Below, one piece after another: positions 3,912 to 20,547 of a DNA stretch of 39,794 nucleotides. Below the pieces are notes generated by a model, which was not told where the DNA came from, made no database searches, and was given only the letters and a program-made list of their open reading frames with translations. Every line of letters starts with the position of its first letter. The first letter of the stretch is position 1. The stretch comes from Pirellulales bacterium (GTDB lineage Bacteria > Planctomycetota > Planctomycetia > Pirellulales > S012-138). The stretch lies in the NCBI GenBank assembly GCA_028066245.1, contig JALCBR010000039.1, positions 1 to 39,794 of the forward strand, read 5' to 3'. The position numbers and the translations under genes are program-made.

Positions 3912-4688
3912 TCAGGCTGCTTCTTCCTCTTTGGGACGCTGCTTGGGTGGAACATATGTGTTGAGTGTCTGTTGAATCACTCGTGGGTTGTCACCGTTTT
4001 GAATTCCCGCAATGCCGCGAATGGTGATTTCCATCGCCAGGACTTCCAGTTTGTTCAAGAAACCAAGTTTGTCGGCCATGGGCAGACAAAACAGGTTTGA
4101 GAAGATGGCGCCATACAAGGTGGTAATCAACGCCACGGCCATGCCGGAGCCAATGGACGATGGATCCGACATGTTGCCCAACATGATGATCAAGCCCATC
4201 AACGTCCCGATCATTCCAAACGCAGGACCGAATCTTCCCAGCGCGTCAAACAGCGATTTTCCGTCTTTGTGCCGAGTGAACACGGCTTCCATCTCCGTCC
4301 GCATCACATTTTCAGTGATTTCCTGCGGGGTGCCATCCACGGCCATTTGCACTCCGAGAACAATGAATGCGTTGTCAACATCTTCCAGCTTGGCTTCCAG
4401 TGCTAACAGTCCTTCGCGTCGGGCCGTTTCCGCCAGCTGGACGATTTGCTCAATGAGCTCTGGGATCTTGGGAGTCTTGTTGAGGAAGACCGTCTTCAAC
4501 ACGCCAAAGATGCTCAAGAAAGTCTTGAGTGGAAAGGAGATCAAAGTCGCCGCGATCGCCCCGCCGACCACGACCATCAGCGATGGGTAGTCAATAAACG
4601 CGCCAAAAGAAGAGCCTGGCGCAATCGCGATCGCTGCGACCAGCAGGATGATTCCCAGCAGAAGCCCAACCACGGAGGAAATATCCAT
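3912..4688 (-). CDS. motA: Flagellar stator protein MotA
   Basis: Stator subunit that forms the ion channel with MotB and pushes on FliG. The 258-residue protein has four membrane segments: two near the N-terminus (about 5-25 and 32-52) and two around 155-215, separated by a cytoplasmic loop. The loop carries R90 and E98 (ARREGLLALE), at the same numbers as the torque-generating charges of E. coli MotA. The conserved prolines of the channel are P155 (RFGPAFGMIG) and that in FCLPMADKL. The ATG at 4688 has GGAG 6 nt upstream. It starts 9 bp after flbD ends and is followed by motB. Its intact charges contrast with the altered FliG in this cluster. Confidence 0.95.
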   Translation of the reverse strand: MDISSVVGLLLGIILLVAAIAIAPGSSFGAFIDYPSLMVVVGGAIAATLISFPLKTFLSIFGVLKTVFLNKTPKIPELIEQIVQLAETARREGLLALEAKLEDVDNAFIVLGVQMAVDGTPQEITENVMRTEMEAVFTRHKDGKSLFDALGRFGPAFGMIGTLMGLIIMLGNMSDPSSIGSGMAVALITTLYGAIFSNLFCLPMADKLGFLNKLEVLAMEITIRGIAGIQNGDNPRVIQQTLNTYVPPKQRPKEEEAA

Positions 4689-4980: not shown

Positions 4981-7437
4981 CTACCGCCGCAGGTTGAGGA
5001 GCTCGTCCAACAGCCGCTGGGCGGCGTCGATGACTCGCGTATTACCTCGATATTGCGTTGACGCAAGGATGAGATCGATCAGGTTTGAGCCGACATCCGT
5101 GTTGGAAAGTTCAACGGCACCTGCAATCAACCGTCCGACGCCTTGCTCGCCAGGCTGCCCCTGAATCGCCAGACCAGAGTTGACGCCGCTGGCGTACAAG
5201 TTTTCCCCCTTCTGTTCCAGGCCGGCAGGGTTGGCGAACCGCGCCAAAATCACCTGGCCCAGATCTCGCGTAACACCGTTGGAGAAAACTCCACGGATTC
5301 CTCCGTCTTCACCAATGATGAAGCTGGTCAGAGTTCCCGGAGGCGATCCATCCTGGCGTGAAGCGGCCAGGCCACTGGAATCTGTCGCCAAGCCAGAAAG
5401 CTTCGTGAAGTCCAGTTCAAATTCGAGTGGTGAAGTGCTGGAAACTGTATCGCGATCCACGGAAACCGTGGACTCGGTGACATTGATGACGTTGCCTTCG
5501 CCATCAAATGTGATCAGGCCTGTCCCGACAGCGATCTCGGCATCATTGCCGATCGATTGGTTGTCCGGTGAATCGGCAAACCAGCGATATGTGGTCGTGT
5601 TCCCGTCTCGTGATTCCTGAACAGCTGTCAAGCGGATGCTAACGGGGATCCCCAACGAATCGTAGACAATGAAGTCGGCAACTGCGGTTTCTCCCGTGGC
5701 GGCCTGGATTTCTCCGAATGGCAAATCAACGGTTGTGACCTGACCTGAATTCCCCCGGAACGAAAGTCCCGAAAGCCCAATGTCGAGCGAGTTGTCAACA
5801 CCGTTGTTCCCGACGAACTGAATTCGTCCGCTGGTGACGCTTCCGCCAGGGTCAACTGTGCCGGTTGTTGTCAGCGAGTCGGGAATGGGATTGGTCGGAT
5901 CTGTGTCCTCTTGGATGCCCATGGCATCTTCCATGAAGTTGACTAGATCTTGCACGGTACTGGTTGCCGTGACGGCGAACTCCTGCGTCCCCAGTGTGCG
6001 GCCACCTTTTCTCGCCGTAAAGCTCAGTGTCCCCTCCTCGGCAAACAGGTTTTCGTACGTGTCCGTCCCTGTCCGCTTCAACACATCCAGCAACAGAGTT
6101 GATGAGAAGTTGATTTGCGGACCATCAAAGTCAATCTCAGGATTCGTGGCGAGTGTCGTGTCATCCAATCCGTCAATGAACGTGGTTTTCCCAACCGCTG
6201 CTGGAGTAAGTTCTGTAACTAAATGATATTCCGTGTCGTCGGTCGCCAGCGTGCGATAGATATTGATCTGATCGTATGGTGCAGGGATATCCGCCGCGCC
6301 AGGTAGATCTGTCAGGCGGACGCGCGTGCTACCGGTGACGGTCACCTGGCCCAAGATTGGCGAGGGGCGACTGGGAGCGACGGCGCCCAGGCTGCTGGAA
6401 TAGCTAATTCGATAGCTGTATGTACGGCTTCCCGGCGGCTGCGCAGGATCAAACAAGGTGGCGTTTCCGGCGATTGACGCTTGCGAGGCAGCATCGGTAA
6501 AGGCCGTGGTTACCATCTCGTTGAATTCCGTCAGGAATTGAAACGAGCCACCATCAAGAGAGCGGTAGATGCGGCGACCGACATACTCACCCGGTAAGCC
6601 TCCAGGATCTGTGGGGATGGCCGAAAGATCAATGGCGTCATTCGCAGCCACAGCCAGCCCCGTCGATGCAGTGGACGGAGGACTTTCATTACCCTGGGCA
6701 TCGATGAAGACGACGCGGTATTCAAAAGTGCCAGCTTCCAAAGCGCCAGCACCGGCATTGATGGCTGTTGTCGGCGGCGCCCCTGGGCCTCCAACCGCTA
6801 ATGGTACTGCGCCAAAATCTGTGTCCGGCGAAGGGACCGCCGCGTCACCAAGCACTTCGGACTGGATGATTGAGGCTGAGTCAGCAAGGGTGCCGTTGGG
6901 GCGGAGCGTCCCTTCCAAGATCACTTCATTGGTCGGATTGGCGACTGCCGCAGCACCCAACGGAATGCTCAACGGGACAAGGACCGTTGACTGGACGTTG
7001 AACTGGTCGTCGATGCCGAATCCGAGCAATCGATTTCCGTTGACATCGACAAGCTCGTTTTCAGCGTTGGTCTTGAAGATTCCGTTGCGGCTGTAGAGTT
7101 GCTCGCCTGCTCCGCCTTGGACGACGAAAAATCCGTCACCCTGAATAGCCAGGTCAGATGGATTCGTACTGACCTCGATGGTGCCCTGCGTGAAGTCCGG
7201 TTTGATCTCCGCGACCTTGGCTCCCAGTCCGATCTGGCGAGGATTGGTACCACCGCTTCCGGCGGTTGGGCCAGAGCCCAAGGACTGTGTCTGCACGAAC
7301 TGCGTGGCAAAGATGGCCTCTGACGATTTGAAACCAACCGTGCTGGCATTAGCGACGTTGTTACCGACGACATCGATTGTCGTTTCTGCTGCGGTCAGAC
7401 CGGTCAGTGCAGTACTGAGTGCTGATGCAAGACCCAT
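4981..7437 (-). CDS. flgE: Flagellar hook protein FlgE, enlarged
   Basis: Structural protein of the hook, the universal joint between rod and filament, exported by the flagellar type III system. The N-terminus MGLASALSTALTG with VVGNNVANASTVGFK and the C-terminus GVELSNTDV-like segment SNTDVGSNLIDLILASTQY are the rod/hook helices; DLAIQGDGFFVV is the conserved D1 entry. At 818 residues it is about twice the length of E. coli FlgE. Part of the extra length is a pair of similar modules at about residues 225-315 and 335-425, each with an FEYRV/YSYRI strand and an IYR motif, resembling fibronectin type III folds. The ATG at 7437 is chosen for its perfect GGAGG ribosome site; an upstream in-frame start would add 14 residues. 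A 204-bp gap separates it from flgD, the largest inside the operon; I saw no sigma-54 element there. Confidence 0.93.
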   Translation of the reverse strand: MGLASALSTALTGLTAAETTIDVVGNNVANASTVGFKSSEAIFATQFVQTQSLGSGPTAGSGGTNPRQIGLGAKVAEIKPDFTQGTIEVSTNPSDLAIQGDGFFVVQGGAGEQLYSRNGIFKTNAENELVDVNGNRLLGFGIDDQFNVQSTVLVPLSIPLGAAAVANPTNEVILEGTLRPNGTLADSASIIQSEVLGDAAVPSPDTDFGAVPLAVGGPGAPPTTAINAGAGALEAGTFEYRVVFIDAQGNESPPSTASTGLAVAANDAIDLSAIPTDPGGLPGEYVGRRIYRSLDGGSFQFLTEFNEMVTTAFTDAASQASIAGNATLFDPAQPPGSRTYSYRISYSSSLGAVAPSRPSPILGQVTVTGSTRVRLTDLPGAADIPAPYDQINIYRTLATDDTEYHLVTELTPAAVGKTTFIDGLDDTTLATNPEIDFDGPQINFSSTLLLDVLKRTGTDTYENLFAEEGTLSFTARKGGRTLGTQEFAVTATSTVQDLVNFMEDAMGIQEDTDPTNPIPDSLTTTGTVDPGGSVTSGRIQFVGNNGVDNSLDIGLSGLSFRGNSGQVTTVDLPFGEIQAATGETAVADFIVYDSLGIPVSIRLTAVQESRDGNTTTYRWFADSPDNQSIGNDAEIAVGTGLITFDGEGNVINVTESTVSVDRDTVSSTSPLEFELDFTKLSGLATDSSGLAASRQDGSPPGTLTSFIIGEDGGIRGVFSNGVTRDLGQVILARFANPAGLEQKGENLYASGVNSGLAIQGQPGEQGVGRLIAGAVELSNTDVGSNLIDLILASTQYRGNTRVIDAAQRLLDELLNLRR

Positions 7438-7641
7438 GAGTTCCTCCGTGGCTTGATGTCCCGGCAACTTCCTATGCAAAGGTTGCCCGTCGCTTGGTCC
7501 TGCCCGGGCGGTGTGCGAGTTGCCTGACTCCGTGCTTGAGTTTGATGTCTGCTTGTTCTGAGATCACGCTTTGCCGGGAGGGCAAGACACGATGATGTGT
7601 ACGGATTCAGTGATATGAATGGATTCGTTTTGCATCTGCGA

Positions 7642-8088
7642 CTAGTCCTCACTGGCAGGCAGAATTTCGCGGATATTGTTCAACCTGGCCTGCTGTTCGC
7701 CGACATGCAACGTGACGTCGCTGCCATTGATGGTGACGCGAGAGACAACTCCTTGCACATTAGCGCCATCATCTGCCAACGCGGTGATCTCCTTGCCAAT
7801 CAGCGCTGAGCCGCTGTTGAGGTTTTGTCCCAACGCTAACGCATCCAGTGCGTCGCCGAGCTGGGTGGTGGCTTCGATTTCTTGAATCGTGGCAATCTGT
7901 GCCAGGAACTCGTCGTTCTCCAGTGGATTGAGAGGGTCCTGATTCTGCAGTTCCGCAATCATCAACTGGAAAAAATCATCCAGCTCCAGGCCTTGCAGCG
8001 CGGCCGGATCACCGGACGATCCCGCAGGCTGAGCAACGCCTGCCGTCGTTTGTCCAGCGTTTGAGGTTGTTGTGGTTGTTACTTCCAT
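7642..8088 (-). CDS. flgD: Hook assembly scaffold FlgD
   Basis: Hook capping protein needed for FlgE polymerisation. The product is 148 residues, short for the family. It has a Ser/Thr/Gly-rich N-terminal export region (1-30), then the conserved core LELDDFFQLMIAELQNQDPLNPLENDEFLAQIATIQEIE at about 34-72 (given here as the region containing QNQDPLNPLENDEF), and a C-terminal segment with LIGKEITAL and a short beta-rich part. The C-terminal Ig-like/Tudor domains of larger FlgD proteins appear to be minimal or absent. The ATG has GGAGAAG just upstream. It follows fliK by 54 bp and precedes flgE, the typical order. Confidence 0.93.
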   Translation of the reverse strand: MEVTTTTTSNAGQTTAGVAQPAGSSGDPAALQGLELDDFFQLMIAELQNQDPLNPLENDEFLAQIATIQEIEATTQLGDALDALALGQNLNSGSALIGKEITALADDGANVQGVVSRVTINGSDVTLHVGEQQARLNNIREILPASED

Positions 8089-8142: not shown

Positions 8143-9843
8143 TCAAGCTACGAGGTCAAGTTCGCTATCAGAGTGGGACGCTGACTTGGATTTGCGGAGT
8201 TGATCGACATCCGATTCACTTTCGGATGTCGAAGTTGCTGCAGACGTGCTTGCAGCGGTTGAATCCTCAGAGTCTCTCTCTCGCTCTCCGGCCGACCCTT
8301 CACGTGAAGAGGGTTGATCATTGACGTCAATGTCAAAGGTCTCGATGCGTATGTTCTGCTCCGCTAGTCGCTCCCGTAGTTGGCCGAGGTTGTCTAGCAG
8401 AATGGTCTTGGCGACTGTGGTTTCCGTCTCGACTCGAGCAACGACAGCTCCCTCTTTGAGAACAACCTCAAGCCTCATCGCTCCGAGTTCTGGAGGGCTG
8501 AGACGCAGTTTCAAAACGCCGCCCCGCTCCTGTGCAAACTCGAAAGCTTTGGCAACACGATTGATGAATCGTGATGTTTGCAATGAAGTAAGTGAACCGG
8601 CAGATTGCTCCGTTGAACGTGTGCCTTGCAATGTCTCGTTGCCCTTCGTCGTAGGTGCGACCCCTGCGGAATCAACTTCGGTGACAGGACTTGTCGGTGA
8701 AGACTTGCTGTTTGCGGCCGAATCAGAAACCGAGGCCTCGCCAGGCGCGGCGGCGAGTGGAGATTCTCGCTGATTGACGAGCGAAGCTTCAGTGGTTGCT
8801 GCTAGCGACTCAGAGCTGTCCGTGGCCGCCGCGTTTGCGGTCACCTGTGGCGGCATCGCATGACCGGGTTTGGGTAGAGCCGAAACTCGTCCCCCTGCTT
8901 TGGCTGGCTTCGCCGGTGAGTCGTGTTCTTGTTTTTCGTTTCGAGAGGAGGGCTCGTGATCAACCGTGGATTCCTCTATGCCGTTTCGTCGCTGCTCGAT
9001 GGGTGAAGAGGCTGCGTTTGCGTCGGAATATTTTCCAGGCTTGCTTGCCTGCTTACTTTCAGAATGGTTCGACAGCGGATCCGGTTGATTTGCTGTCTTG
9101 GTCTCTTGGTCTTCACCTTTGTTGCCTGTCTGCCTACCGTCTTGCGTCACAGCAGGCTGTAGCTTGGCGGCGTCACCATCGGAAGGGACTTTCCCGTTTG
9201 CTTCGTCGATCGTTCGCGGAGCTGTTTCATCCGCTATGATTTTCTGGCTGGCGTTTCCGGTGCCGTGTTCTGTTTCTCGCGATTGTTTTCCTGCCGAAGT
9301 CACTTCGCCTTGACCAGGTCTCGATTGTTCGACACCGGCATTCTTCCCCTCTGAGGTTGGGGATGTTAGATCACCCGTCAGGGATTTGTCCGCTTGCTTG
9401 CCCTGTTTTGGATCGACTGCCTCGAGTGTCGTGTCGGTCAGGGGATTTGCATTCGTGGCTGCATCGTCTGGCGCAGTCACCAAGTTGGATGCAGTTTCAT
9501 CTACCAAGGTTGTCTCGATAGCAGCCTCACTTGTCTCCTTTGAATCCGTGGGAGCGTCCTGCGTGTCTTGATCGTCGTTCCCGGTTGCCCCAGACGTTTG
9601 GTCAGAATCCGAGGGTGTTTCAGATCCCTCGGTTCTCTGAGCAGGCTCGATCTCGTTATCTGGTTCCCGCCCAGAGGGATTGTTCTCTTGTCTCCGCGCC
9701 GACGGGCTTTCCTGGGGAGCCCGAAGGTGTTCTTGGAATACACCCGAGGCAATCTGCGGATCGCAGTTGCAACCGCCGGTGATGAATGACGACGAGGCCA
9801 GATTGGCGATCGTTTTTTCTGTGGAGAAGTTGAGTTCAGCCAT
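8143..9843 (-). CDS. fliK: Flagellar hook-length control protein FliK
   Basis: Secreted molecular ruler that measures the hook and switches export specificity. The 566-residue protein has a long, low-complexity N-terminal and middle region (about 1-420) rich in Ser, Thr, Glu, Asp, Gln and Lys, as expected for the extended ruler. The C-terminal Flg_hook domain at about 430-520 contains LKLRLSPPELGAMRLEV followed by NIRIETFDIDV. A polar tail ends the protein. Hook domain sequence is the diagnostic part; the rest is recognised by composition and position. The ATG has GGGG 6 nt upstream. The gene begins 9 bp after the YlxF-like gene ends, so they are translationally close. Confidence 0.92.
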   Translation of the reverse strand: MAELNFSTEKTIANLASSSFITGGCNCDPQIASGVFQEHLRAPQESPSARRQENNPSGREPDNEIEPAQRTEGSETPSDSDQTSGATGNDDQDTQDAPTDSKETSEAAIETTLVDETASNLVTAPDDAATNANPLTDTTLEAVDPKQGKQADKSLTGDLTSPTSEGKNAGVEQSRPGQGEVTSAGKQSRETEHGTGNASQKIIADETAPRTIDEANGKVPSDGDAAKLQPAVTQDGRQTGNKGEDQETKTANQPDPLSNHSESKQASKPGKYSDANAASSPIEQRRNGIEESTVDHEPSSRNEKQEHDSPAKPAKAGGRVSALPKPGHAMPPQVTANAAATDSSESLAATTEASLVNQRESPLAAAPGEASVSDSAANSKSSPTSPVTEVDSAGVAPTTKGNETLQGTRSTEQSAGSLTSLQTSRFINRVAKAFEFAQERGGVLKLRLSPPELGAMRLEVVLKEGAVVARVETETTVAKTILLDNLGQLRERLAEQNIRIETFDIDVNDQPSSREGSAGERERDSEDSTAASTSAATSTSESESDVDQLRKSKSASHSDSELDLVA

Positions 9844-9852
9844 TATTGCCCC

Positions 9853-10533
9853 CTAGTCCTGTGTGGAGTCCATGAGGATCTCGTTGACTTCCTCGGCGAG
9901 TCGGATTTCCGGCACTCCCTCACGCATTAGCCGGATAATTTCCGAGAGGATCTGTGATTCGTCGTCGTTTTTGAACTCGGCGACCAGTTTGGTGCGGTTA
10001 TTTTGCGGCAAAGACTTCACCAGGCTGACGACGAAATCCTTCTCGCCGCGGCTCCACATCCGCTTAACTTCTTCTTTGGCTTGTGGCGCTTTCATCCCTG
10101 CGATCAAGGCCACGGCGTCGTCTATAGCGGCCGTGCGTTGCGCGTCTTGCCATTGCGACAGCCGTTCTTCAAATGTTTTTTGTGCGAGGTCGAGACTTGT
10201 GTCTTCCGCAGTCAGTTGCTGCCGCTGCGAGTTGATCTCAGAAGCTAGAGTTTTCAAAGCTTGCTCACGAAACTCCATATCACGCAGCCCCATCGCGCGA
10301 GCCTCAACAACTTGCGCGATCGATCCCGTGTCGGGTTCAGCAAGATCTGTAGCGATGGGCATGTCAGCGGGCTTCTCTTCCAGGTCGTAGGCTATTTGAG
10401 CGATGCGTCGAACTTTCTCTGGAGTGATGTCAACTTTCATCCAGACATAGGCGAACACCAAAGCTTGCGCGAATACCGTCGCCACGCAGAAGTACATGAA
10501 GTATGTGACGAGTCCACCCAGGATTCTTTTCAT
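9853..10533 (-). CDS. YlxF/MotE-like flagellar operon protein
   Basis: A 226-residue protein with one N-terminal membrane helix (about residues 5-32, YFMYFCVATVFAQALVFAYV), then a long predicted coiled coil rich in Glu, Gln and Arg (about 75-140), and a helical C-terminal domain resembling the MgtE N-terminal/FliG-like fold (DDAVALIAGMKAPQAKEEV and VAEFKNDDESQILSEIIRLM). This architecture matches YlxF of Bacillus and MotE of rhizobia, which sit between fliJ and fliK; MotE acts as a periplasmic chaperone of MotC, whereas YlxF has no firm role. The start codon overlaps the stop of fliJ (ATGA), so translation is coupled. Orientation of the C-terminal domain cannot be told from sequence alone. 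Confidence 0.82.
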   Translation of the reverse strand: MKRILGGLVTYFMYFCVATVFAQALVFAYVWMKVDITPEKVRRIAQIAYDLEEKPADMPIATDLAEPDTGSIAQVVEARAMGLRDMEFREQALKTLASEINSQRQQLTAEDTSLDLAQKTFEERLSQWQDAQRTAAIDDAVALIAGMKAPQAKEEVKRMWSRGEKDFVVSLVKSLPQNNRTKLVAEFKNDDESQILSEIIRLMREGVPEIRLAEEVNEILMDSTQD

Positions 10534-10979
10534 GTTTCCATGCTCCTCTGCGACGCCTGGCTTTGGCTCACCTCATCCAAGGCTTGGCCTTCTTGTCGCC
10601 ACAACTCTTCCGTGAATCGTTGTGACTGGCGATCGCGAAGTTTCTCCAAGACTTTTACCGCACGATCTGCTTCGAGTAGCTTGGCTCGTCGCCGTTCGGC
10701 TTCCGCCTGGATGTCCGCGGATTGTTTATCGAGCAAATCCACTTGCGCTCTTAACAACAACTCGTGCTGAGAGGACTGAATCATCAAATCAACATTCAAC
10801 ACACCAGTTTGAACTCGGCGCGCAGCGCGAAGCGCCTCTAACTCCGACTCGAGCGAGGCTTGTTGGCTGCGCACAACGTCCACTGCGCGGAGTGCTTCCA
10901 TGTACTCTCCGCGGCGTTCGTCCCTTTCGGTTTCGCGCAGTTTGAGTAGCGTTGCCAAACGAAACTTGAACCGCGTCAT
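10530..10979 (-). CDS. fliJ: Flagellar export chaperone FliJ
   Basis: Cytoplasmic protein that acts as the central stalk of the FliI ATPase ring and as an export chaperone escort. The 149-residue product starts FKFRLATLLKLRETERDERR, the typical FliJ opening, and is almost entirely charged alpha-helix predicted as two antiparallel coiled-coil arms. It has no membrane segment. The gene lies 116 bp downstream of fliI and overlaps the next gene by 4 bp (ATGA). The start lacks a strong ribosome site. Confidence 0.92.
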   Translation of the reverse strand: MTRFKFRLATLLKLRETERDERRGEYMEALRAVDVVRSQQASLESELEALRAARRVQTGVLNVDLMIQSSQHELLLRAQVDLLDKQSADIQAEAERRRAKLLEADRAVKVLEKLRDRQSQRFTEELWRQEGQALDEVSQSQASQRSMET

Positions 10980-11095: not shown

Positions 11096-12487
11096 CTATT
11101 GATTTGTTGCCACGGTTGGCCGCGGCGTGGCTGAGACTCCTTGATGTGCCCCCGCTTGAACAGCGGGATTCACGCCAGTTGGTAGTTGGCAAACATTGGC
11201 CAACTGGATGAGCTGCGCAATGCCTTGTTGTCCACCCGAGTTTTGCTCTGGCGCTTGCTGCAAGAACGCGTTGATTTGGTCACGGGCTGCGATTGCTACA
11301 TCCACCGTCGTGTTTGCTCCAGGCCGATACGCTCCAATCGAGATCAGATCTTCGTGATCTCGATACGCGGCTAAGATTTCACGAATGCGCCGAGCCGCCG
11401 CCAGATGCTCTGGCGTTGTGATTTGCGGCATCAAACGACTGAGGCTCTCCAACACATCAACGGCCGGATAATGCCCACGCGAGGCCAAGCCTCGTGACAA
11501 CCAAGTGTGCCCATCCAGCAATCCTCGGACGGCGTCGGCGATTGGCTCCTGAGGATCATCCGCCTCAACGAGCACAGAGTAAAAGCCTGTGATACTCCCT
11601 TGCTTCGTACAGCCGGCACGCTCGACAAGTTTGGGAAGTGCTGCAAAAACCGAAGGTGGATAGCCACGTGTTGCGGGAGGTTCGCCTGCAGCGAGTCCGA
11701 TCTCGCGCTGTGCCTGAGCAAACCGCGTGAGTGAATCCATGAGCAGGAGAACGTGTTGCCCTCGCGCACGAAATGATTCCGCAATGGCGGTCGCCGCCAT
11801 TGCAGCACGAACACGAACTTGAGCAGGCTCATCGCTCGTTGCAACAACCACAACAGATCGTTTGAGCCCTTCCTCGCCCAATTCGTTTTCGATGAACTCA
11901 TTCACCTCGCGGCCCCGCTCGCCAATCAGGGCGATCACCGAGACATCCGCACCGGTGTAGCGAGCCATCATGCCAAGCAGCACGGACTTTCCGACTCCTG
12001 AACCGGCAAAAACCCCCATCCGCTGGCCGCGACCGCACGTCAACATCGCGTCCATGACCCGCACGCCGGTTGGCAGTATTTCAGAGATTCGCGGTCGATT
12101 CACGGCTGACGGTGGCGGGGAATCCAGGTCTGTACGACGATTGAGCGTTGACGCCGGATGCCCATCGATGACTTCACCAAAGGCATTGACCACGCGGCCT
12201 AGCAGCCCATCGCCCACGCGGATCCAACGTCCTGTTTTGACGAGTCTCACCTGATCGCCACGGCGAACGCCCGTCGTGGACCCCAACGGAGACACGATGG
12301 TAGTGTTTTCTTGAATGCCAACCACCTCGACAAACAACGGTGAGCCTGTTTCGCGTTGGATCATGGCCGTCGCGCCCAAGGGCGCGGGAAAACCATTAAC
12401 ATGAATAGCCATGCCGACCGTCCGCGCAACCCGCCCCTTGATCTCTGTGGGCATCACGCGTTCAAGTTGATTCAGCAATTCAGTCAT
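11096..12487 (-). CDS. fliI: Flagellum-specific ATPase FliI
   Basis: Hexameric ATPase that energises the flagellar type III export apparatus. The 463-residue protein shows the F1-beta-like fold: N-terminal barrel to about residue 95, then the nucleotide-binding domain with Walker A AGSGVGKS at 161-168, the ERGREVNEFIE motif, and Walker B in HVLLLMDSLTRFAQAQRE. The C-terminal helical domain has YPAVDVLESLSRLMP. A tail of about 40 residues rich in Gln, Asn and Ala extends beyond the usual end. It lies 44 bp downstream of fliH. The ATG start lacks a strong ribosome site. Confidence 0.97.
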   Translation of the reverse strand: MTELLNQLERVMPTEIKGRVARTVGMAIHVNGFPAPLGATAMIQRETGSPLFVEVVGIQENTTIVSPLGSTTGVRRGDQVRLVKTGRWIRVGDGLLGRVVNAFGEVIDGHPASTLNRRTDLDSPPPSAVNRPRISEILPTGVRVMDAMLTCGRGQRMGVFAGSGVGKSVLLGMMARYTGADVSVIALIGERGREVNEFIENELGEEGLKRSVVVVATSDEPAQVRVRAAMAATAIAESFRARGQHVLLLMDSLTRFAQAQREIGLAAGEPPATRGYPPSVFAALPKLVERAGCTKQGSITGFYSVLVEADDPQEPIADAVRGLLDGHTWLSRGLASRGHYPAVDVLESLSRLMPQITTPEHLAAARRIREILAAYRDHEDLISIGAYRPGANTTVDVAIAARDQINAFLQQAPEQNSGGQQGIAQLIQLANVCQLPTGVNPAVQAGAHQGVSATPRPTVATNQ

Positions 12488-12531: not shown

Positions 12532-13194
12532 TTAGGTGAGCTCTTCCTCGATCCGCTTGAGTTGAGATTCAAACCGTTGATCGATCTCACCGAATTCTGT
12601 TTCAACCAAACAACCGCCGCGTGACACTTCAGCGTCCGAAACCACCTCTGCCACTGCGGCCGGAGCGAGACTTTCCGCCATCTTGTGACTGCGTTCCGCC
12701 AACGCGTCAAAATCGTGAGGATTGAGGTGAATCACCAAACGAGGAGCCCCAGCGGCAAGTACAATCGCTTCGCGTAAGAGCTCTAGTGGGACATCTGGCT
12801 TCGATTCAATGGTTGTGCGCATCACGCGCGCGGCGATTGCTGTCGCTAAGTCAATGATTTGGTGCTCCCAATGAGCAATCCAACTTTGCTTGGATGAATG
12901 CAAGGCACGGATGAATTCATCCATCGCAGGCTTGATCGAATCCAAATGTTGGTTGATGTAGGAGCCAGCGAGTTCCTGAACTCGCTCTTGGATGGATTTC
13001 TCGGCTTCAGCTCGCGCCTCTTGCGCGACATTGGCTTTGAGTTCGCCAGCCTGTGCCTGCGCGCTCTCCAAGATTCCCCTGCCTTGCTCCCGAACGCGGT
13101 CAAGGTATGCCGACGCTTTAGTGGCAACGTCTTCAAAGTTGAATTCCACCGTGTGCGGAATCGCCAGGTCACTTTGACTCTTGATGACTGTCAT
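12532..13194 (-). CDS. fliH: Flagellar export regulator FliH
   Basis: Peripheral stalk of the export ATPase, which binds FliI and docks it to the C ring. The 220-residue protein has a charged, Ala/Gln/Glu-rich helical N-terminal half (about 25-90), then a C-terminal FliH/V-ATPase E-type domain with IIDLATAIAARVM, PRLVIHLNPHDFDAL and the terminal VEADAEVSRGGCLVET-like region (here VVSDAEVSRGGCLVETEFG). The GG motif and order fit FliH. No ribosome site is evident upstream of the ATG. It follows fliG by 51 bp. Confidence 0.93.
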   Translation of the reverse strand: MTVIKSQSDLAIPHTVEFNFEDVATKASAYLDRVREQGRGILESAQAQAGELKANVAQEARAEAEKSIQERVQELAGSYINQHLDSIKPAMDEFIRALHSSKQSWIAHWEHQIIDLATAIAARVMRTTIESKPDVPLELLREAIVLAAGAPRLVIHLNPHDFDALAERSHKMAESLAPAAVAEVVSDAEVSRGGCLVETEFGEIDQRFESQLKRIEEELT

Positions 13195-13245: not shown

Positions 13246-14370
13246 TCAAGCCACCAAGGCCATGCGCTGGAAGGGGACGTCAATCTTGCCGTGCGCTGCC
13301 ATCTCACCAGCAGCTTGTGCCAAGCGGCACTTGGCCGCCTCGACATCATCGAGCCGCGTGGGCCCAGGGTTGGCCAGAGCATATCGCCAGACACGAGCCT
13401 CGCGCGGAGACAACTGGTCCAGCACACGCTCGACAAAGGACTCTGGCGCATCAAACAGGGCCAGAATGGACTCCTCGGGGGTAACAGCTGTGAAGACCTG
13501 AAACAACGCATCACCAGAAAGTCGCAGCACATCGGCAAACGTCATCTCCGGCACTTGCGTTGAGTAATTCCTCCCTGACTGCCCTGCAAGCCGATCATCA
13601 GAGGCTGCCGCTGGAGCAAGGGCAGCGTGAGTAACTTCGGTCGCTGGCCGCACTTCCAGGCTCGCGCGAAGTTGTGATCTCGTTTGTGGTTCGGCAGCTT
13701 CTAAGATCTCTCGCAGAATTGTATGACCGTGTGTGGAGCTTCCGGAGTCAAGCCCGAGATGTGCAAAGCGCGCTGCAAGTCCAAGTTCGAGTTCTTGTAG
13801 AATCTCCGGATGCATTTCATCCAGATGCAAGATGCGCTTGATGACATCGGCCCGGCGCGGATGTGGGATTTCTGCCAGCAGTTGAGCTCCACGGTCTCTC
13901 GGCAGGTGCGCTGCAATGACTGCCACAGTTTGTGGGTGTTCATTTTGCAGCAGTTGAGAAAGCGAAGATGGTTCCGCTTGGCGCAACATTTCAAATCGGG
14001 GATGTGCAACGCCCGTCATCGCCTTGCTTTCCGCTTCACCACCGCCTAACGGGTTTGTCGTTTGCAGCGATTGACTGTTTTCAGGGTCCGAGATATCGAA
14101 ATCCCGCTCACTCTCCGTGGTGAACTCCAGTTCGACACCTTCGGGATCATCACTTGGCTGCTTGTGTCCACCTGTTGTAAAGAACTCGCGGATCACCATG
14201 TCGCGCTCGGCATCGGAGATCTCATCAAGCGCGAGCGCCATGTCCCGTACGCGCGTTGCAAGTGCATCGGGAAGATGTTCCAGCAAACGGTCGGCCGTCT
14301 CGATATCCAGTGTGGAGATCAAGATCGCGGCTTTGCGAGCTGATGCGATTTCTGGTGTTGGGAGTTTCAT
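13246..14370 (-). CDS. fliG: Flagellar motor switch protein FliG
   Basis: Rotor protein on which MotA pushes. The 374-residue protein has an N-terminal FliF-binding domain (ARKAAILISTLD at 11), an unusually acidic linker of about 55 residues, the middle domain with the EHPQ motif at 144-147, and the C-terminal torque domain (about 277-350, ending GPTRLDDVEAAK). Aligned without gaps to E. coli FliG as I remember it, the five torque charges K264, R281, D288, D289 and R297 become F306, R323, Y330, A331 and R339; only the two arginines remain. I take the ATG at 14370 because it gives the usual N-terminus; a GTG at 14424 would add 18 residues. Neither has a good ribosome site. It follows fliF. Confidence 0.93.
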   Translation of the reverse strand: MKLPTPEIASARKAAILISTLDIETADRLLEHLPDALATRVRDMALALDEISDAERDMVIREFFTTGGHKQPSDDPEGVELEFTTESERDFDISDPENSQSLQTTNPLGGGEAESKAMTGVAHPRFEMLRQAEPSSLSQLLQNEHPQTVAVIAAHLPRDRGAQLLAEIPHPRRADVIKRILHLDEMHPEILQELELGLAARFAHLGLDSGSSTHGHTILREILEAAEPQTRSQLRASLEVRPATEVTHAALAPAAASDDRLAGQSGRNYSTQVPEMTFADVLRLSGDALFQVFTAVTPEESILALFDAPESFVERVLDQLSPREARVWRYALANPGPTRLDDVEAAKCRLAQAAGEMAAHGKIDVPFQRMALVA

Positions 14371-14445
14371 GGTGATGGTTTGTGGTCGATCCGATTGGAG
14401 AAAATCCCGCCAGGGATGTGTCACCCAGCTGAGCTACTTGTTGTG

Positions 14446-16080
14446 TTACGTTGGCGATGAAATCCAGCCCTGCAGGATCGATGCGGCTGTGTCCGGGTCT
14501 TCTCGGACTAACCCAGCGAGTTCTTCCTTCACGTTCGAGTCCGAGGCATCCCATTTTCGAGCGGGGCGAGGAGCATCGTTCGCTATGGGATCCTCATCAC
14601 TACCAACCTCCGGCTCGTCTTGTTCGGCTGAGACCGGTTCTCTCTTGGTGGCAGACTTGACGAAAGAACGGACCATCAACAAACCGACCAGGCCCAAAAA
14701 GAACATTCCCACGTTTCCTCCGTGCTGCCCAACCCAATTCATAGCAGAATCCATAAACTCCTCTTCTGGCGGAGGAGAGGAGGGCAAGCTCGGAAAGTCG
14801 GTGAATGTCACTTCCGCGTTGACTGCGGATGTGGGAGTAGAGATTTGTCCGAGGACATGTGACCTCCACTGAAGGAATGCAGCGTCCCGCAAGGGATGCC
14901 AATCCGTTACCTCCGGCTCGCCGGCTTCGGGATTGTCGGCCTTCCATTGGTCGATGAAATAGCTACTCGGAACACCGACGGAGACAGACACTGAGACCGG
15001 TCTCAGGCCGGCTGTTTCCGTTTCTCGATCTGTATGTCCCGGTAAGGTGGTTTTCTCACTCGTCGTCGAAGAGGTCTCGTCAGAAGTGCCTGCTGTTGTT
15101 CCAGTCAGCGACGCTTGCGAGTTGGCACCATTCTGTTCGGGCGGGCGACCACTGGCTGGGGTTGCTTCGGATGTTGTGGAGTCTTCCGTTTGCAAGTCTG
15201 AAAGTGTGCCGCCTTTCTTGTCGTCGAGTTCTCGCGAGCGCTCCCGCTCAAAGATTTTGGGGTCAAGCTCCACAATGGAACTAACTGTGACTTCTGGCAC
15301 CCATCGAGCCAAAGACTTTCGTACTTTTTCGTCGATAGCTTTCTGCTGCTGGAGTTGCGCTGCGAAATACCTTTCCTGCGCGCCCATTGCCGGATCGAAC
15401 GAATCCGAAGGCCCAATCACCGGCTTGTCGTTTACGGTAATGCTGATGTCGTTTAGATCGAGTCCAACATAGGCGTGCTTGATCATTTGTCGAATCGCCT
15501 GGGCGAACGACGGTTCAATGCTGGCGATTCCATCTTTGGACCGCAAAGCCACTGAGGCCGTCTTTTGAGTCTTTCGCGTTAGCCCTCGTGATTCATCTTC
15601 GCTGTAAACGACGACGGCATTCTCGATCCCGTCATCCATGACTCTGATCCATTGCGCCAGCATTCGCTGCTTTGCGGTGGCAATGGCGTACTTGCGCTCT
15701 TCGCGTGATGCAAAGGGACTGAGGTCGGTCATGGCCTCGGCCATGATGTCGGCCGCGTCGCGCGGCAAGACGCCGGCACTTGCCATCGCAGCCAGATATT
15801 TGGCTTCCTCGCCGGAGGGAACCTTAATCCTTGAACCTTCGATCACAGCTCCGCTGAGTCCCGCCTGACCGAAGGCCGCCTGAATGCGTCCCATTTCCAC
15901 GGGATCGAATGGTCGTCCGCCCAGCAAAAAGTCAGCAGAGTTGGCGCCACTGTTCATAAACAGATAGCCGAGACTAACTACGATCACCGCGAACAAAAGC
16001 ACAGCGGTTAGCCGCGCACCGGGCGTCATCGAGAGAAAAAGATCCTTGGCTTGCTCCCAAGCTTTGGTCAAAACGCCCAT
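14446..16080 (-). CDS. fliF: Flagellar MS-ring protein FliF
   Basis: Forms the MS ring in the cytoplasmic membrane, the foundation of the basal body. The 544-residue protein has a first membrane helix at about 24-41, ring-building motifs in the periplasm (the region with LRSKDGIASIEPSFAQAIRQ and DLNDISITVNDKP), a Ser/Thr/Glu-rich loop (about 290-350), and a second membrane helix near 455-475 (VGMFFLGLVGLLMVRSF). The C-terminal tail ends EELAGLVREDPDTAASILQGW, the FliG-binding helices. The ATG has GGAG upstream. It lies 61 bp downstream of fliE's end. Confidence 0.96.
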   Translation of the reverse strand: MGVLTKAWEQAKDLFLSMTPGARLTAVLLFAVIVVSLGYLFMNSGANSADFLLGGRPFDPVEMGRIQAAFGQAGLSGAVIEGSRIKVPSGEEAKYLAAMASAGVLPRDAADIMAEAMTDLSPFASREERKYAIATAKQRMLAQWIRVMDDGIENAVVVYSEDESRGLTRKTQKTASVALRSKDGIASIEPSFAQAIRQMIKHAYVGLDLNDISITVNDKPVIGPSDSFDPAMGAQERYFAAQLQQQKAIDEKVRKSLARWVPEVTVSSIVELDPKIFERERSRELDDKKGGTLSDLQTEDSTTSEATPASGRPPEQNGANSQASLTGTTAGTSDETSSTTSEKTTLPGHTDRETETAGLRPVSVSVSVGVPSSYFIDQWKADNPEAGEPEVTDWHPLRDAAFLQWRSHVLGQISTPTSAVNAEVTFTDFPSLPSSPPPEEEFMDSAMNWVGQHGGNVGMFFLGLVGLLMVRSFVKSATKREPVSAEQDEPEVGSDEDPIANDAPRPARKWDASDSNVKEELAGLVREDPDTAASILQGWISSPT

Positions 16081-16141: not shown

Positions 16142-16441
16142 CTAGACGCGAATGTCTTTGATCTCGTTGTAAGCCGCGACCATCTTATTTCTGACTTGCA
16201 TAATCATCCGAAATGCGAGGTCCGCCTTTTGCACGGCCGTCAGCACTTCCGCGGGATTGACGTCCTCACCTGTAAAGAGCTTCTGCACGGCCGTGTCCGC
16301 CTGCTGCTGCGCGGAATTGACTTCCTGAATGGAACTCAACAAATGATCTTTGAACGTGGGCCCTGCCATCTCGCCCGGCAAATCGGGGAGCGATGGAACG
16401 GCCGGCATCGGAGAGAATTGCAAAGGTTGAATGGAATTCAC
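16142..16441 (-). CDS. fliE: Flagellar hook-basal body protein FliE
   Basis: Small rod protein joining the MS ring to the proximal rod. The C-terminal half matches the family: TFKDHLLSSIQEVNSAQQQAD and VLTAVQKADLAFRMIMQVRNKMV, with an ending YNEIKDIRV. I chose a GTG start at 16441 (99 residues) because GGAAAG lies 7 nt upstream; an in-frame TTG at 16456 would add 5 residues without a ribosome site. The Pro/Met-rich N-terminus is variable in the family. It lies between flgC and fliF with about 60-75 bp on either side. Confidence 0.92.
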   Translation of the reverse strand: MNSIQPLQFSPMPAVPSLPDLPGEMAGPTFKDHLLSSIQEVNSAQQQADTAVQKLFTGEDVNPAEVLTAVQKADLAFRMIMQVRNKMVAAYNEIKDIRV

Positions 16442-16516
16442 GGCAGTGCTTTCCAATCTGAAAACGGCGAATTAGGATCGTTTGTCTTTGCGCGGCGTTC
16501 TATGAAGCCGCATTCT

Positions 16517-16936
16517 TCAAGCAAGGATTCTCAGCGTCTGACGCCCCAGGTCTTTGGTGATTTCCATGACACCAACGTTGGCTTCATAGGCCCGTGTCGC
16601 GTCCAGTGCGTGTACGAACTCCTGCGTCATGTCAATGTTGGGGTATGCAACTTCGCCGGCATGTGGACCGCTCTGTACGGCGTCGGGGTTGCCTGGCTCG
16701 TATCGCCAAAGTGGCTCTCGTTGGTCAATGCCAACATGAGAAACAACCACGCCTGCTGAACCGGAAGGCATATCCTTCTCTGTTGTTTCGAAAACAACGA
16801 ACCGTGGTTGGTAGGGTTCCGGTTGTCCGGCTTCATTTCGAGTTGTGGAGACATTGGCAATGTTGCCGCTGATGGCGTCTAGCCGGGCGCGCTGTGCGAC
16901 CATACCGCTGACGCTGATGTCCAATGCCGAATGCAT
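16517..16936 (-). CDS. flgC: Flagellar basal-body rod protein FlgC
   Basis: Proximal rod subunit. The 139-residue protein begins with the rod signature ALDISVSGMVAQRARLDAIS and GNIANVSTTRNEAGQPEPYQ, and ends with the conserved helix EFVHALDATRAYEANVGVME followed by LGRQTLRIL. The middle segment PHAGEVAYPNIDMTQEF is typical. The ATG is preceded by GAGGAG. It follows flgB by 69 bp in the usual flgB-flgC-fliE order. Confidence 0.96.
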   Translation of the reverse strand: MHSALDISVSGMVAQRARLDAISGNIANVSTTRNEAGQPEPYQPRFVVFETTEKDMPSGSAGVVVSHVGIDQREPLWRYEPGNPDAVQSGPHAGEVAYPNIDMTQEFVHALDATRAYEANVGVMEITKDLGRQTLRILA

Positions 16937-17005: not shown

Positions 17006-17443
17006 TTACGCTCTTTCCGAGATGGCGGATTGGATCAGACGGAACTGGTTGTTGAGAATGGTCAAGGCCATGTTGTGTTGCATTTGGTTCTTGGTGATCT
17101 CGGCAACCTGGTATTCCAAGGAGCGGTTTTCAGAGTTCACAACCAGCGAATCATCAATCTGGCTCTTGAGTCCGCCAAAGTGATTTTTTGCTTCCTTGCC
17201 AGAATGCGGTTTCTCAAACCCGCTCGCGGCTGTTGCTGGGTGGCTCGTTGATGCGGATTCGGCTTCGACAGCTTTCTTCAACATGGCCTGAAAAGCTTCC
17301 GGGGGGAGGTCACGAAACTCGTAGCCCGGTGTGCTGATATTGGCAATGTTTCCCGCCAGGACGTTGTGTCTCATTTGGCCGAAGTTGACGACCTGCTCCA
17401 GGATGGGAGTTGTGCTGTTTTGGAACATGCCCTGGACGTTCAT
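17006..17443 (-). CDS. flgB: Flagellar basal-body rod protein FlgB
   Basis: Proximal rod subunit and first gene of the operon. The 145-residue protein has ILEQVVNFGQMRHNVLAGNI followed by ANISTPGYEFRDLPPEAF, the rod N-terminus, and a C-terminus EITKNQMQHNMALTILNNQF. The ATG has GGGAGGA 6 nt upstream, a strong ribosome site. A sigma-54-type element lies about 50-64 nt upstream of the start codon, giving a predicted leader of about 38 nt. Confidence 0.95.
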   Translation of the reverse strand: MNVQGMFQNSTTPILEQVVNFGQMRHNVLAGNIANISTPGYEFRDLPPEAFQAMLKKAVEAESASTSHPATAASGFEKPHSGKEAKNHFGGLKSQIDDSLVVNSENRSLEYQVAEITKNQMQHNMALTILNNQFRLIQSAISERA

Positions 17444-17491: not shown

Positions 17492-17507
17492 GGCAAGTTG
17501 CGCGCCG
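17492..17507 (-). promoter_or_regulatory. Sigma-54 (-24/-12) promoter of the flagellar operon
   Basis: Read on the minus strand the sequence is CGGCGCGCAACTTGCC, against the sigma-54 consensus TGGCACG-N4-TTGCW. GG (17505-17506) and GC (17493-17494) are separated by exactly 10 bases and the -12 element TTGC is perfect. Predicted transcription start is near 17481, about 38 nt before the flgB ATG. An NtrC-type activator with an intact GAFTGA loop is encoded immediately upstream. Confidence 0.7.
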
Positions 17508-17655
17508 ACGATGACGCTGTCACTGGTGGCGGTGGCAAACTTTACGTTGTCGTCAGGATTGATTGTTCTCGGCTTTGGTTGCTCAGTGTTTGTGTTGTTT
17601 CATTGCTTCACTTGTTTCTCACTGCGCCGAAATTGCCGCGCCGTGGGGCCGATTT

Positions 17656-17671
17656 TGCTTGCCGAGTGCCC
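17656..17671 (-). promoter_or_regulatory. Possible second, weaker sigma-54-like element
   Basis: On the minus strand GGGCACTCGGCAAGCA has GG and GC with the right 10-base spacing and a good GGCAC block, but the -12 part reads AAGC instead of TTGC. It lies next to the activator gene's end, about 200 nt upstream of flgB. Chance occurrence is quite possible. Confidence 0.25.
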
Positions 17672-17683
17672 TGTTGTTCACAA

Positions 17684-19108
17684 TCACGCGGCGCGGCTCG
17701 CTGCTTCTGATTCCGGATGTTTGTCCTGTTTATATTCCTTGAGCTTGCTGGTCAAAGTACGCTGACCGATGCCAAGTGCTTCGGCTGTCTTCCGTCGATG
17801 ACCGTCAAAATGTTCCAGCGTGGCTTCGATCAGGCGCCGCTCCATATCGCGTAGACTTACGCCCACGGGAACGTTGTCATTCGGCTGCTCCGCTTGCCAG
17901 GCTCCTGTACCAGGCTCAAGTAGCCAGCCGCGAAGTTGATCCGCCCCCACTGACTGTCCTGCATGCAGCACGCTCATTCGCGTGACGATGTTTTGCAATT
18001 CGCGAACGTTGCCTGGCCAATCATGCGCGGTGAGCAATTCCACAGCGTCACCTGTCAGCTCAACGGGTTCAGCAGATGTCCGCGCGGCCGATTGTCTCTG
18101 GAAGTGCTCCACGAGCGCCGGAACATCCTCGCGTCGTTGTCGTAGTGGGGGGACGTGAATCGGCAGGACATTAAGCCGAAAGTACAGGTCACGGCGGAAC
18201 TGCCCTGCGGCGACCTCTTCAGCTAGGTTGCGGTTGGTTGTCGCTAGTACGCGAACGTCAACTTCTGTTGTCTTGCTAGACCCGACCCTCTGGAAACTAT
18301 GTTCCTGCAAAACGCGGAGAAGTTTGGCCTGCAAGGGTAGGTCGATCTCAGTAATCTCATCCAGGAGGAGTGACCCACCATCTGCGGCTTGAAAGCGTCC
18401 GACACGGTCTGTTTCGGCGCCAGTGAATGCGCCGCGTTCATGCCCGAAGAGTTCGCTCTCCGTCAGTTGCGCTGACAGGACAGGGCAATTCAAGTCAACA
18501 AACGGCGCCGCATGTCGCGGACTATTCGCATGCACACTACGGGCCACCAGTTCTTTCCCGACGCCGCTTTCACCTGTGATCAGTACAGTCTCGCTCGTCA
18601 CACCTACCTGCGCAATTCGTGCTCGCAGATCGCGCATGGCAGTACCATCGCCAATCATGGCGTGACCGCCGCCTTGTGGCGAAACGAATGCATTCGCCTG
18701 CGTGCGATTTCGCGCGGCGGCAACAGCGCGGCGAATCACTTCATCCAGGCGATCCACGTCAATCGGCTTTTCAATGTAATCAAACGCGCCACGGCGCATT
18801 GCCTCGACTGCGGTGGAAACGCTCGCATGAGCGGTGACCATGACGATCTCTGCGTTGTAAGATCGCTGGTGCATCGTGTGCATCAACTCCAGGCCGTCCA
18901 TGCCGGGCATCTGCAAGTCGGTCACAACCACATCCACATCATCACTGGGCAAGTGGCGAAGCGCATCTTTGGCGCTGGCTGCCGATTGCACACGGTGACC
19001 AAACATCATCAGCGCCGCGGAGATCGATTCACGGACAGCGTCCTGGTCATCGACGACAAGAATGGCGCCGGTGGTGTGTTTGCTCGAATTGTGACGGGGA
19101 AAATTCAT
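17684..19108 (-). CDS. NtrC-family sigma-54 response regulator (FlgR/FleR-like)
   Basis: Activates sigma-54 promoters after phosphorylation. The 474-residue protein has a receiver domain with phospho-acceptor D64 (VVTDLQMPGMDG) and the conserved lysine K114 in IEKPID. The AAA+ domain follows, with Walker A GESGVGKE at 179-186, the sigma-54-contacting GAFTGA loop at 226-231, and Walker B SLLLDE near 250. A C-terminal Fis-type helix-turn-helix includes TAEALGIGQRTLTSKLKEYK. The gene lies between the flagellar structural operon and its cognate kinase gene, on the same strand, so its target is most likely the sigma-54 element in front of flgB; this is inference from context. Relatives include FlgR of Helicobacter/Campylobacter and FleR of Pseudomonas. 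Confidence 0.93.
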   Translation of the reverse strand: MNFPRHNSSKHTTGAILVVDDQDAVRESISAALMMFGHRVQSAASAKDALRHLPSDDVDVVVTDLQMPGMDGLELMHTMHQRSYNAEIVMVTAHASVSTAVEAMRRGAFDYIEKPIDVDRLDEVIRRAVAAARNRTQANAFVSPQGGGHAMIGDGTAMRDLRARIAQVGVTSETVLITGESGVGKELVARSVHANSPRHAAPFVDLNCPVLSAQLTESELFGHERGAFTGAETDRVGRFQAADGGSLLLDEITEIDLPLQAKLLRVLQEHSFQRVGSSKTTEVDVRVLATTNRNLAEEVAAGQFRRDLYFRLNVLPIHVPPLRQRREDVPALVEHFQRQSAARTSAEPVELTGDAVELLTAHDWPGNVRELQNIVTRMSVLHAGQSVGADQLRGWLLEPGTGAWQAEQPNDNVPVGVSLRDMERRLIEATLEHFDGHRRKTAEALGIGQRTLTSKLKEYKQDKHPESEAASRAA

Positions 19109-19131: not shown

Positions 19132-20055
19132 CTAAGATTTTCGACAGGGTTTTTCCGGCAAGGCGAAGGGCCGGCTAACGTCAACAAGCGATCCTTTCAC
19201 GACCGCCGGCACCACGACTTCAAGAATGGCTCCTCCTCCCTGTTGCGTTGGACGGTTGCTTGCCGTCAACGTACCGTCATGGCGCTCGACGACATGGGCA
19301 GCGATCGCCAAACCCAATCCGGCACCGCTTCCCTTGGTTGAAAAGAACGGCTCAAACAATCGCGGCATCACAGCTGGAGGGATGCCTGGGCCGGAGTCGC
19401 CAATCGTCAAGTGACATACTCCGTCTTTGACGTTCGCTGCAATCTCGACTTGCCCACCGTCAGGCATCACATCAATCGCATTGATCACCAAGTTGAGGAC
19501 AACTCGGCGGAACATGTCAGCATCCAATGGCAGAGCAATGCACTCGTCAACGTCAAGCGAGATTGAGATTCCATGAGCAGTCAACTGTGGCGATAGCCGT
19601 TCCATACAATCTTGGATTAGCGAGCGCAGCGGTGTGGAATGGAACTGTGGCTCGCGCTCTGCGGCAAAATGCAGCAAGTCATTAACCAACGCGTCCATAT
19701 CCGCGACACCGACGGCAACCTTGTTGAGGACATCTTGGCTCTCAGAATCTGCTTCCAATCGCCGTTTGAGCATCCCCAGATACAAAGTGACTGGAACCAG
19801 GTTGTTGCGAACTTCATGCGCCACATGAGAAGCCAACTGTCCTAGGTCTGCCAAGCGGTTCTTCCGTGCAAGTTCCCGGTTCTTGATCTCGAGTTCGTTT
19901 GAAAGCCGGTGCACCTCTTCTTGCAACACTAGATGCGTCTTTTCCAGGCGAGACGTTGCATCCTGCCAGGCGGACAGCACGGCTTGGAGCTCTGCGTTTG
20001 TGGCGCGCAACTCCGCTGCTTGAGTGGGGGTGCGCATTGTGTAGATGTTAGTCAT
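19132..20055 (-). CDS. Soluble sensor histidine kinase (FlgS-like)
   Basis: Probable partner of the adjacent NtrC-type regulator, whose gene begins 23 bp later. The 307-residue protein has no membrane segment. An N-terminal coiled coil (about 12-68) leads into the dimerisation domain with phospho-accepting H80 in SHVAHEVRNNLVP; the usual HEIRNPL proline is replaced by asparagine. The ATPase domain has the N box NLVINAIDVMPDGG, the G1 box GDSGPGIPP, the F box FEPFFSTKGSGAGLGLAI. A cytoplasmic kinase without a sensory domain fits FlgS, which reads the state of the flagellar export apparatus, but the input signal here is unknown. Start is ATG at 20055. Confidence 0.9.
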   Translation of the reverse strand: MTNIYTMRTPTQAAELRATNAELQAVLSAWQDATSRLEKTHLVLQEEVHRLSNELEIKNRELARKNRLADLGQLASHVAHEVRNNLVPVTLYLGMLKRRLEADSESQDVLNKVAVGVADMDALVNDLLHFAAEREPQFHSTPLRSLIQDCMERLSPQLTAHGISISLDVDECIALPLDADMFRRVVLNLVINAIDVMPDGGQVEIAANVKDGVCHLTIGDSGPGIPPAVMPRLFEPFFSTKGSGAGLGLAIAAHVVERHDGTLTASNRPTQQGGGAILEVVVPAVVKGSLVDVSRPFALPEKPCRKS

Positions 20056-20088: not shown

Positions 20089-20547
20089 CTAGCTGCCAGT
20101 GGATAGGTCCAGCCGGTGGCCTCCTACGGGAGCATTGTTGGCATACGCCGTGCTGGCCTGGTTCGCCCCCTGGAGTGTCTGCAACTGCTGCGAGACGTCT
20201 GTTCGGCGGGCGGCAAGCTTGGTTTCACTTTCCTTCTCTTGCGCAAGAATCTCTTTCATGATGGCTTCCGATTCGTCCAGGAGCTTCCGGCAATCGGCTC
20301 GGTCTTGTTCACTTGACCAATCGTGAGACTTGAGAGGCAGGTCCCGAAACGGCTTCAACTGCTCGTCGACCTGTGTCAAAGTCTCCAATTCACGGCTTTT
20401 TTCTGCCAACAAGGTGAGCAACCGTCCCATGTCACCTTGTTCGATCAGTGCGATCTGTCCGGCGCCGTACCGACTGACACGCAGCAGGCAATCGCGCCGC
20501 GTCTGCGCGAGCTGCAACAGTCGTTCAGAAGTTGTTGCGGATGTCAT
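20089..20547 (-). CDS. FlgN-like flagellar chaperone
   Basis: A 152-residue, nearly all-helical, charged protein with two long heptad-like stretches (about 5-60 and 75-128) and a disordered tail. Composition and the opening SERLLQLAQTRRDCLLRVSR, together with LLTLLAEKSRELETL, resemble the FlgN/FliT chaperone group, which escorts hook-associated proteins to the export gate. No cysteine-rich or enzymatic motifs are seen. It is encoded just before the histidine kinase gene, and FlgN genes often lie near flagellar regulators. The assignment rests on fold-like features and position, so it is moderate. Confidence 0.6.
   Translation of the reverse strand: MTSATTSERLLQLAQTRRDCLLRVSRYGAGQIALIEQGDMGRLLTLLAEKSRELETLTQVDEQLKPFRDLPLKSHDWSSEQDRADCRKLLDESEAIMKEILAQEKESETKLAARRTDVSQQLQTLQGANQASTAYANNAPVGGHRLDLSTGS

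Follow-up and report, generated by a model that had tools for sequence, protein, structure and literature searches.

Genomic comparison indicates that the flgB and flgF operons of a Pirellulales bacterium are probably under the control of a single kinase, response regulator, palindromic operator and sigma-54 circuit. The window, the whole stretch of 39,794 nt that was analysed, is one complete contig, G000:C60; the draft genome to which it belongs comprises 4.94 Mb in 186 contigs. The flagellar cluster and planctomycete-specific domains encoded elsewhere in the window fit a placement in Pirellulales, and the one named relative found is a Planctomycetaceae MAG. In the proposed mechanism, the element CGGCGCGCAACTTGCC would serve as the -24/-12 promoter of the genes from flgB to motB, presumably co-transcribed (Table 1); the neighbouring cytoplasmic kinase would phosphorylate the neighbouring NtrC-type regulator; and the regulator would bind the palindrome pair GATCGGCARAATYTGCCGATC, two copies 22-24 bp apart and ~160 nt upstream of the promoter, form a ring and remodel the sigma-54 polymerase at flgB. 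The same regulator would likewise activate the flgF-flgG-flgA-flgH-flgI-...-flgK-flgL operon elsewhere in the genome, and the filament genes would come next, under FliA. Because the flgB operon includes fliF and fliG, the switch would turn on the whole hook-basal-body on a presumed signal, and would not be the report of a finished MS ring and rotor. The support is comparative and consists of the promoter, the enhancer, synteny, co-loss and the covariation of operator and recognition helix.

Table 1. Predicted genes and regulatory elements of the flgB locus
Feature	Position	Strand	Evidence or remark
motB	3083..3790	-	
motA	3912..4688	-	
flgE (hook)	4981..7479	-	
flgD	7642..8088	-	
fliK	8143..9843	-	
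226-aa ORF without Pfam match, where Bacillus has ylxF	9853..10533	-	gene order
fliJ	10530..10979	-	
fliI (export ATPase)	11096..12487	-	domain match
fliH	12532..13194	-	domain match
fliG (rotor)	13246..14424	-	domain match
fliF (MS ring)	14446..16080	-	domain match
fliE	16142..16456	-	domain match
flgC	16517..16936	-	rod-protein domains, gene order
flgB, first gene of the predicted sigma-54 operon	17006..17443	-	TIGR01396 over cut-off
Predicted sigma-54 (-24/-12) promoter element TCGGCGCGCAACTTGCC	17492..17508	-	position and sequence conserved in the order
Proximal palindrome GCGCGGCAATTTCGGCGCAGT, degenerate copy	17621..17641	-	centre 188 nt before flgB start
Distal palindrome GGCAAGCAAAATCGGCCCCAC, degenerate copy	17643..17663	-	22 bp from proximal copy
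NtrC-type response regulator / sigma-54 activator (FlgR-like)	17684..19108	-	receiver, AAA+ with GAFTGA, Fis-type HTH
Cytoplasmic sensor histidine kinase (FlgS-like)	19132..20055	-	HisKA and HATPase_c; N-terminal region without recognised domain
FliT-like protein gene upstream of kinase	20089..20547	-	position conserved in the order; Pfam FliT match below curated cut-off

Promoter element and paired palindrome upstream of flgB

A sequence-only reading of this DNA had placed a sigma-54 promoter before flgB, with GG and GC at 10-base spacing, a TTGC and a leader of about 38 nt. All of these were confirmed on the minus strand, where CGGCGCGCAACTTGCC runs from 17507 to 17492. The -12 C lies at 17493, 49 nt from the flgB start, and the predicted transcription start at ~17481 gives a leader of ~38 nt to the flgB ATG at 17443, which is directly preceded by an RBS-like GGAGG. 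With a generic -24/-12 matrix the site scored 9.7 and ranked only 17th in the window, so it is not singled out by the generic consensus alone. A clade matrix was trained on the sites of 62 relatives with the genome studied here (G000) left out; these training sites were picked by a consensus matrix, and the invariance of GG and GC is thus partly built in. With this matrix the site scored 14.8, second among ~79,500 window positions; 0.0026 matches this good are expected in the flgR-flgB gap, and among random segments of 240 nt only 0.15% score as high. It stands at the weak end of the set, with 11% of the training sites scoring below it, and each of its deviations from the textbook element (C for T before GG, G for A, C after TTGC) occurs in relatives.

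Promoters were read in the stretches of genome retrieved for 83 flgB loci, almost all of which belong to the order of G000. Sigma-54 sites scoring at least 10 were found upstream of flgB in 76% of them, against 2.6% of shuffles. Of the 72 loci of the order in which flgR precedes flgB, 62 carry a -24/-12 site by the clade matrix (shuffles, 0.2%), and the upstream regions of fliT, flgS and flgR, which served as a built-in control, showed no conserved sigma-54 site in the order. Judged by the clade matrix and this order-wide conservation, the flgB element is a real -24/-12 element, as the earlier reading had supposed.

The best clade-matrix match in the window is CTGGCATCCCGTTTGCT (35766-35782, plus strand), 195 nt 5′ of a 158-aa ORF (35977-36453) without a Pfam match; no palindrome pair was found near it. 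A strong generic match at 20941 was rejected, as it lies inside a TPR gene and is unconserved.

The palindrome CGGCA-N5-TGCCG surfaced when spaced word pairs upstream of the promoters were counted. Its commonest word pair was present in 47 of 65 flgB regions, against no pair above 9 in shuffles, and related pairs ranked top upstream of flgF as well. Matches to the fitted 21-mer, aAtCGGCAgAaTcTGCCGaTt, scoring at least 14 occur in 62/72 loci with flgR (null, 0.2%), and promoter and palindrome occur together in 58 of these 72. The best copy lies ~160 nt before the -12, and the spacing of 22-24 bp between the two copies, equal to two helical turns, was found in 37 of 45 cases. All matches of at least 20 in ~1.1 Mb of locus DNA are located upstream of flgB or flgF; one further match (20.6), outside that DNA, stands elsewhere without a sigma-54 site. 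Exact copies of the single palindrome number 10-17 per genome in four genomes and were not above the reversed control in two. Among the subset of copies examined outside flgB and flgF that score at least 14, none has a sigma-54 site of at least 10 within 300 nt. The single palindrome was rejected, being common by chance.

The paired palindrome appears to be a newly seen candidate DNA enhancer of the flgB operon. An enhancer for the NtrC-type activator is predicted across the order, in degenerate form in G000, where the proximal and distal copies score 7.2 and 2.4. No such pair arose in 20,000 draws of random segments; with a matrix giving no weight to the CG/GC difference, at most 0.11% of draws gave one, a figure that includes draws over the site itself.

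Activator, kinase and their predicted linkage to the flgB and flgF promoters

The activator carries its GAFTGA motif as GHERGAFTGAETD. In the kinase, the Pfam search found HisKA and HATPase_c only, with no PAS match; there is no N-terminal membrane segment, the best hydrophobic window (1.63, at residue 275) being C-terminal. These data bear out the claim of an adjacent GAFTGA activator and cytoplasmic kinase. The further claim, that the pair is the FlgR/FlgS of epsilonproteobacteria, does not agree with the NCBIfam profiles. The activator scored best with AtoC (443 bits), NtrC (441) and ZraR (390) and lower with FlbD (348) and Campylobacter FlgR (314; NF049963, cut-off 750), and the kinase is nearest to AtoS/ZraS; no curated cut-off was reached by either protein. 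The nearest solved structures are NtrC-family proteins for the activator, with LuxO close behind, and ZraS for the kinase. The pair is thus AtoSC/ZraSR-like; there is a fair case that it works like FleSR/FlrBC/FlgSR, and identity with FlgSR is not demonstrable. The FliT-like protein is a candidate input to the kinase. Its gene stays near flgB in four loci (L106, L108-L110), all without kinase and activator.

The gene order FliT-like, kinase, activator, flgB was found in most sampled loci. Kinase and flgB occur together in 78 cases, flgB only in 11, kinase only in 3 and neither in 54, counts that are not independent of phylogeny. In six flgB loci without an activator gene (L106, L108-L112) the promoter is absent and there is no clear enhancer, with one marginal palindrome match in L111. 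Two loci (L075, L087) have no activator in the retrieved stretch yet keep promoter and enhancer, which is expected for a factor acting in trans; in the genome of the former (G023) the kinase was found on another contig. The operator half-site, CGGC or GCGC, tracks a K/R difference in the recognition helix of FlgR: the GCGC half is present in 10/11 K-type versus 8/46 R-type loci, uncorrected for kinship. The helix of G000 is of the type TSKLKEY, which goes with the GC half-site seen there.

The check for rpoN proposed by the sequence-only reading found the gene in G000, encoding the AID, core-binding and DNA-binding domains. Its presence says little by itself, because every tested genome that lacks flgB or the kinase has rpoN too. 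The link claimed between promoter and neighbouring pair finds its support in the conserved promoter, the enhancer and the co-loss, and a sigma-54/NtrC switch for the hook-basal-body genes is well supported by these comparisons.

A sigma-54 site was also found 46-135 nt upstream of flgF in 17/17 genomes, G000 included, where the unit reads flgF-flgG-flgA-flgH-flgI-flgJ-like-flgN-like-flgK-flgL-like. As far as this conservation can tell, flgF-flgG-flgA-flgH-flgI-...-flgK-flgL is a second sigma-54 unit.

Most loci read from other classes of the phylum likewise have the kinase, the activator and, 21-81 nt before flgB, a sigma-54 site; FlgB identity is ~36% there, and most of these loci have a weak enhancer or one of different sequence.

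Six loci of family f21 of the same class (L243-L248, from G296, G358, G324, G193, G380 and G424) have an NtrC-like gene just upstream of flgB whose product has lost Walker A and GAFTGA, with the Fis-type HTH well conserved. No kinase lies nearby and no sigma-54 site scores at least 10.5; rpoN remains in these genomes. These proteins have the look of one-time sigma-54 activators that now serve simply to bind DNA. In ten loci of family f15 (L072, L079, L081, L083, L082, L088, L097, L099-L101), the GAFTGA of FlgR is changed to GAFTSA or GAFTNA, and sigma-54 site and enhancer are kept. The correlated loss, together with the activators that have decayed in family f21, offers a natural experiment on the loss of a sigma-54 circuit.

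Place of the proposed switch in flagellar assembly and alternatives to it

Many Planctomycetota alternate between a swimming and a sessile cell type. Activation of the rod and hook genes by the two-component system of Campylobacter, Vibrio and Pseudomonas depends on the MS ring, FliG and the export gate (PMC7064773). A checkpoint of the Campylobacter type, in which the soluble kinase responds to a completed MS ring, rotor and export gate before sigma-54 transcribes the rod and hook genes, would fit a soluble kinase without a recognised sensor domain, its NtrC partner, the sigma-54 site before flgB and the flhF- and flhG-like genes that adjoin flhA, as in the polar flagellates of PMC7064773. 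An export-gate signal is also possible in G000, where the separate units flhA-flhF-flhG-fliA and fliL-fliN-fliO-fliP-(fliQ)-fliR-flhB were found to have no sigma-54 site. However, fliF and fliG, whose products are required by such kinases (PMC7064773), lie downstream of the controlled promoter, and a matrix scan of the flgB-to-motB interior in G000 found no other sigma-54 site. The usual checkpoint is disfavoured because a sensor of MS ring and rotor would await its own output. Moreover, in 13/18 genomes fliP follows flgE at a distance of ~4-8 kb, on the same strand. A basal internal promoter, perhaps of another class, would rescue the checkpoint, a reading that we regard as unlikely. Of the earlier claim of a sigma-54 checkpoint over the rod-to-hook-to-stator operon, the sigma-54 control is therefore supported and the checkpoint is not, as fliF, fliG, fliH, fliI, fliJ and fliK are inside the operon.

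On contig C175 of G000 (L297), fliL-fliN-fliO-fliP-fliR-flhB is split from the flgB operon, unlike the arrangement in 13/18 genomes.

We tentatively suggest that in Planctomycetota an FlgSR-like pair and sigma-54 may form a top-level basal-body switch, in which the kinase signal precedes assembly. Such a switch would cover the MS ring, rotor, ATPase complex, rod, hook and stator, and in most genomes probably the export gate. The signal might have to do with the formation of daughter cells, or with the neighbouring FliT-like protein.

The conclusion for the order is held more firmly than the activity of the G000 copy, which is less certain. In three genomes of the same family (L056, L086 and L070, from G027, G009 and G041, respectively) the flgR-flgB gap is only 22-40 nt and has no sigma-54 site; G027 and G041 retain the flgF site, and flgF was not found in G009. 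Selection on the flgB site may be relaxed in this family, since these three have lost gap and site. The G000 site could then be a decaying relic, with flgB expressed mainly from transcripts that run on out of flgR or start at some other promoter, as seems to be the case in the sister genera, and the degenerate enhancer copies of G000 agree with this. Nevertheless, the gap in G000 still measures 240 nt, with the promoter at its conserved distance and both palindromes at the conserved 22 bp, and its TSKLKEY helix fits its GC half-site; a relic is improbable on these grounds.

Transcription of flgB from a FliA (sigma-28) promoter was also considered. The candidate, CAAA-N15-GCCGAGAA, matches at 10/12 bases 122 nt before the start, and only ~1% of random segments of 350 nt score as high; all 18 genomes tested have fliA. 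It is unlike the form found before flagellin genes, TAA[AC]-N15/16-G[TA]CGAT[AC], which is present in 9/19 cases against 0.2% of random segments, and its use at flgB is very unlikely. The search for the flgB element before flagellin, suggested by the sequence-only reading, thus came upon a FliA-type promoter instead. A chance match to a short degenerate motif, which the generic rank of 17 might suggest, is more improbable still given the conserved position and sequence in most relatives, the shared enhancer and the co-loss.

Comparison with known flagellar regulators

In the available text of PMC12316311, sigma-54 control of flagellar basal-body COGs is predicted, enriched also in Planctomycetia, and ZraR-like activators are predicted in Planctomycetota; there the promoter is not connected with the present activator, its enhancer or the flgF operon, nor with the question of a checkpoint. 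Beyond that prediction, literature searches turned up no work on sigma-54 control of planctomycete flagella. Among the papers found, flagellar regulation in Planctomycetota appears to be experimentally unstudied.

The genes of FleSR and FlrBC sit beside fliE-fliF in Pseudomonas and Vibrio genomes. FlrC sites lie downstream of promoters, whereas the palindrome pair here is upstream. FleSR and FlrBC need FliF, FliG and the export gate, which are produced earlier, whereas fliF and fliG are here inside the controlled operon; a PAS domain, expected of a FlrBC/FleSR kinase, has no Pfam match in the present kinase. Both systems share with the present one a cytoplasmic kinase, an NtrC-type activator and sigma-54-dependent flgB and flgF operons (PMC7064773), the dependence being predicted here from the sites found before both operons.

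The FlgSR systems of Campylobacter and Helicobacter likewise share a soluble kinase, an NtrC-type activator and sigma-54 for rod and hook genes (PMC3930126), as well as FliA for late flagellar genes. FlgR of H. pylori is without a DNA-binding domain and that of C. jejuni works without an enhancer (PMC3372290), whereas HTH and enhancer are conserved here. The activator is also nearer to AtoC/NtrC/ZraR than to FlgR by profile score.

The core of the Caulobacter ftr elements resembles CGGC-AAA-GC, which we take as a lead only. According to titles cited in PMC3096577, FlbD is a sigma-54 activator acting at ftr elements of flagellar promoters; an activator of this kind is shared with the system predicted here. 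The outcome for Planctomycetota is a concrete predicted regulon of two operons and an operator sequence with a predicted reader, in clear contrast with the proteobacterial checkpoint.
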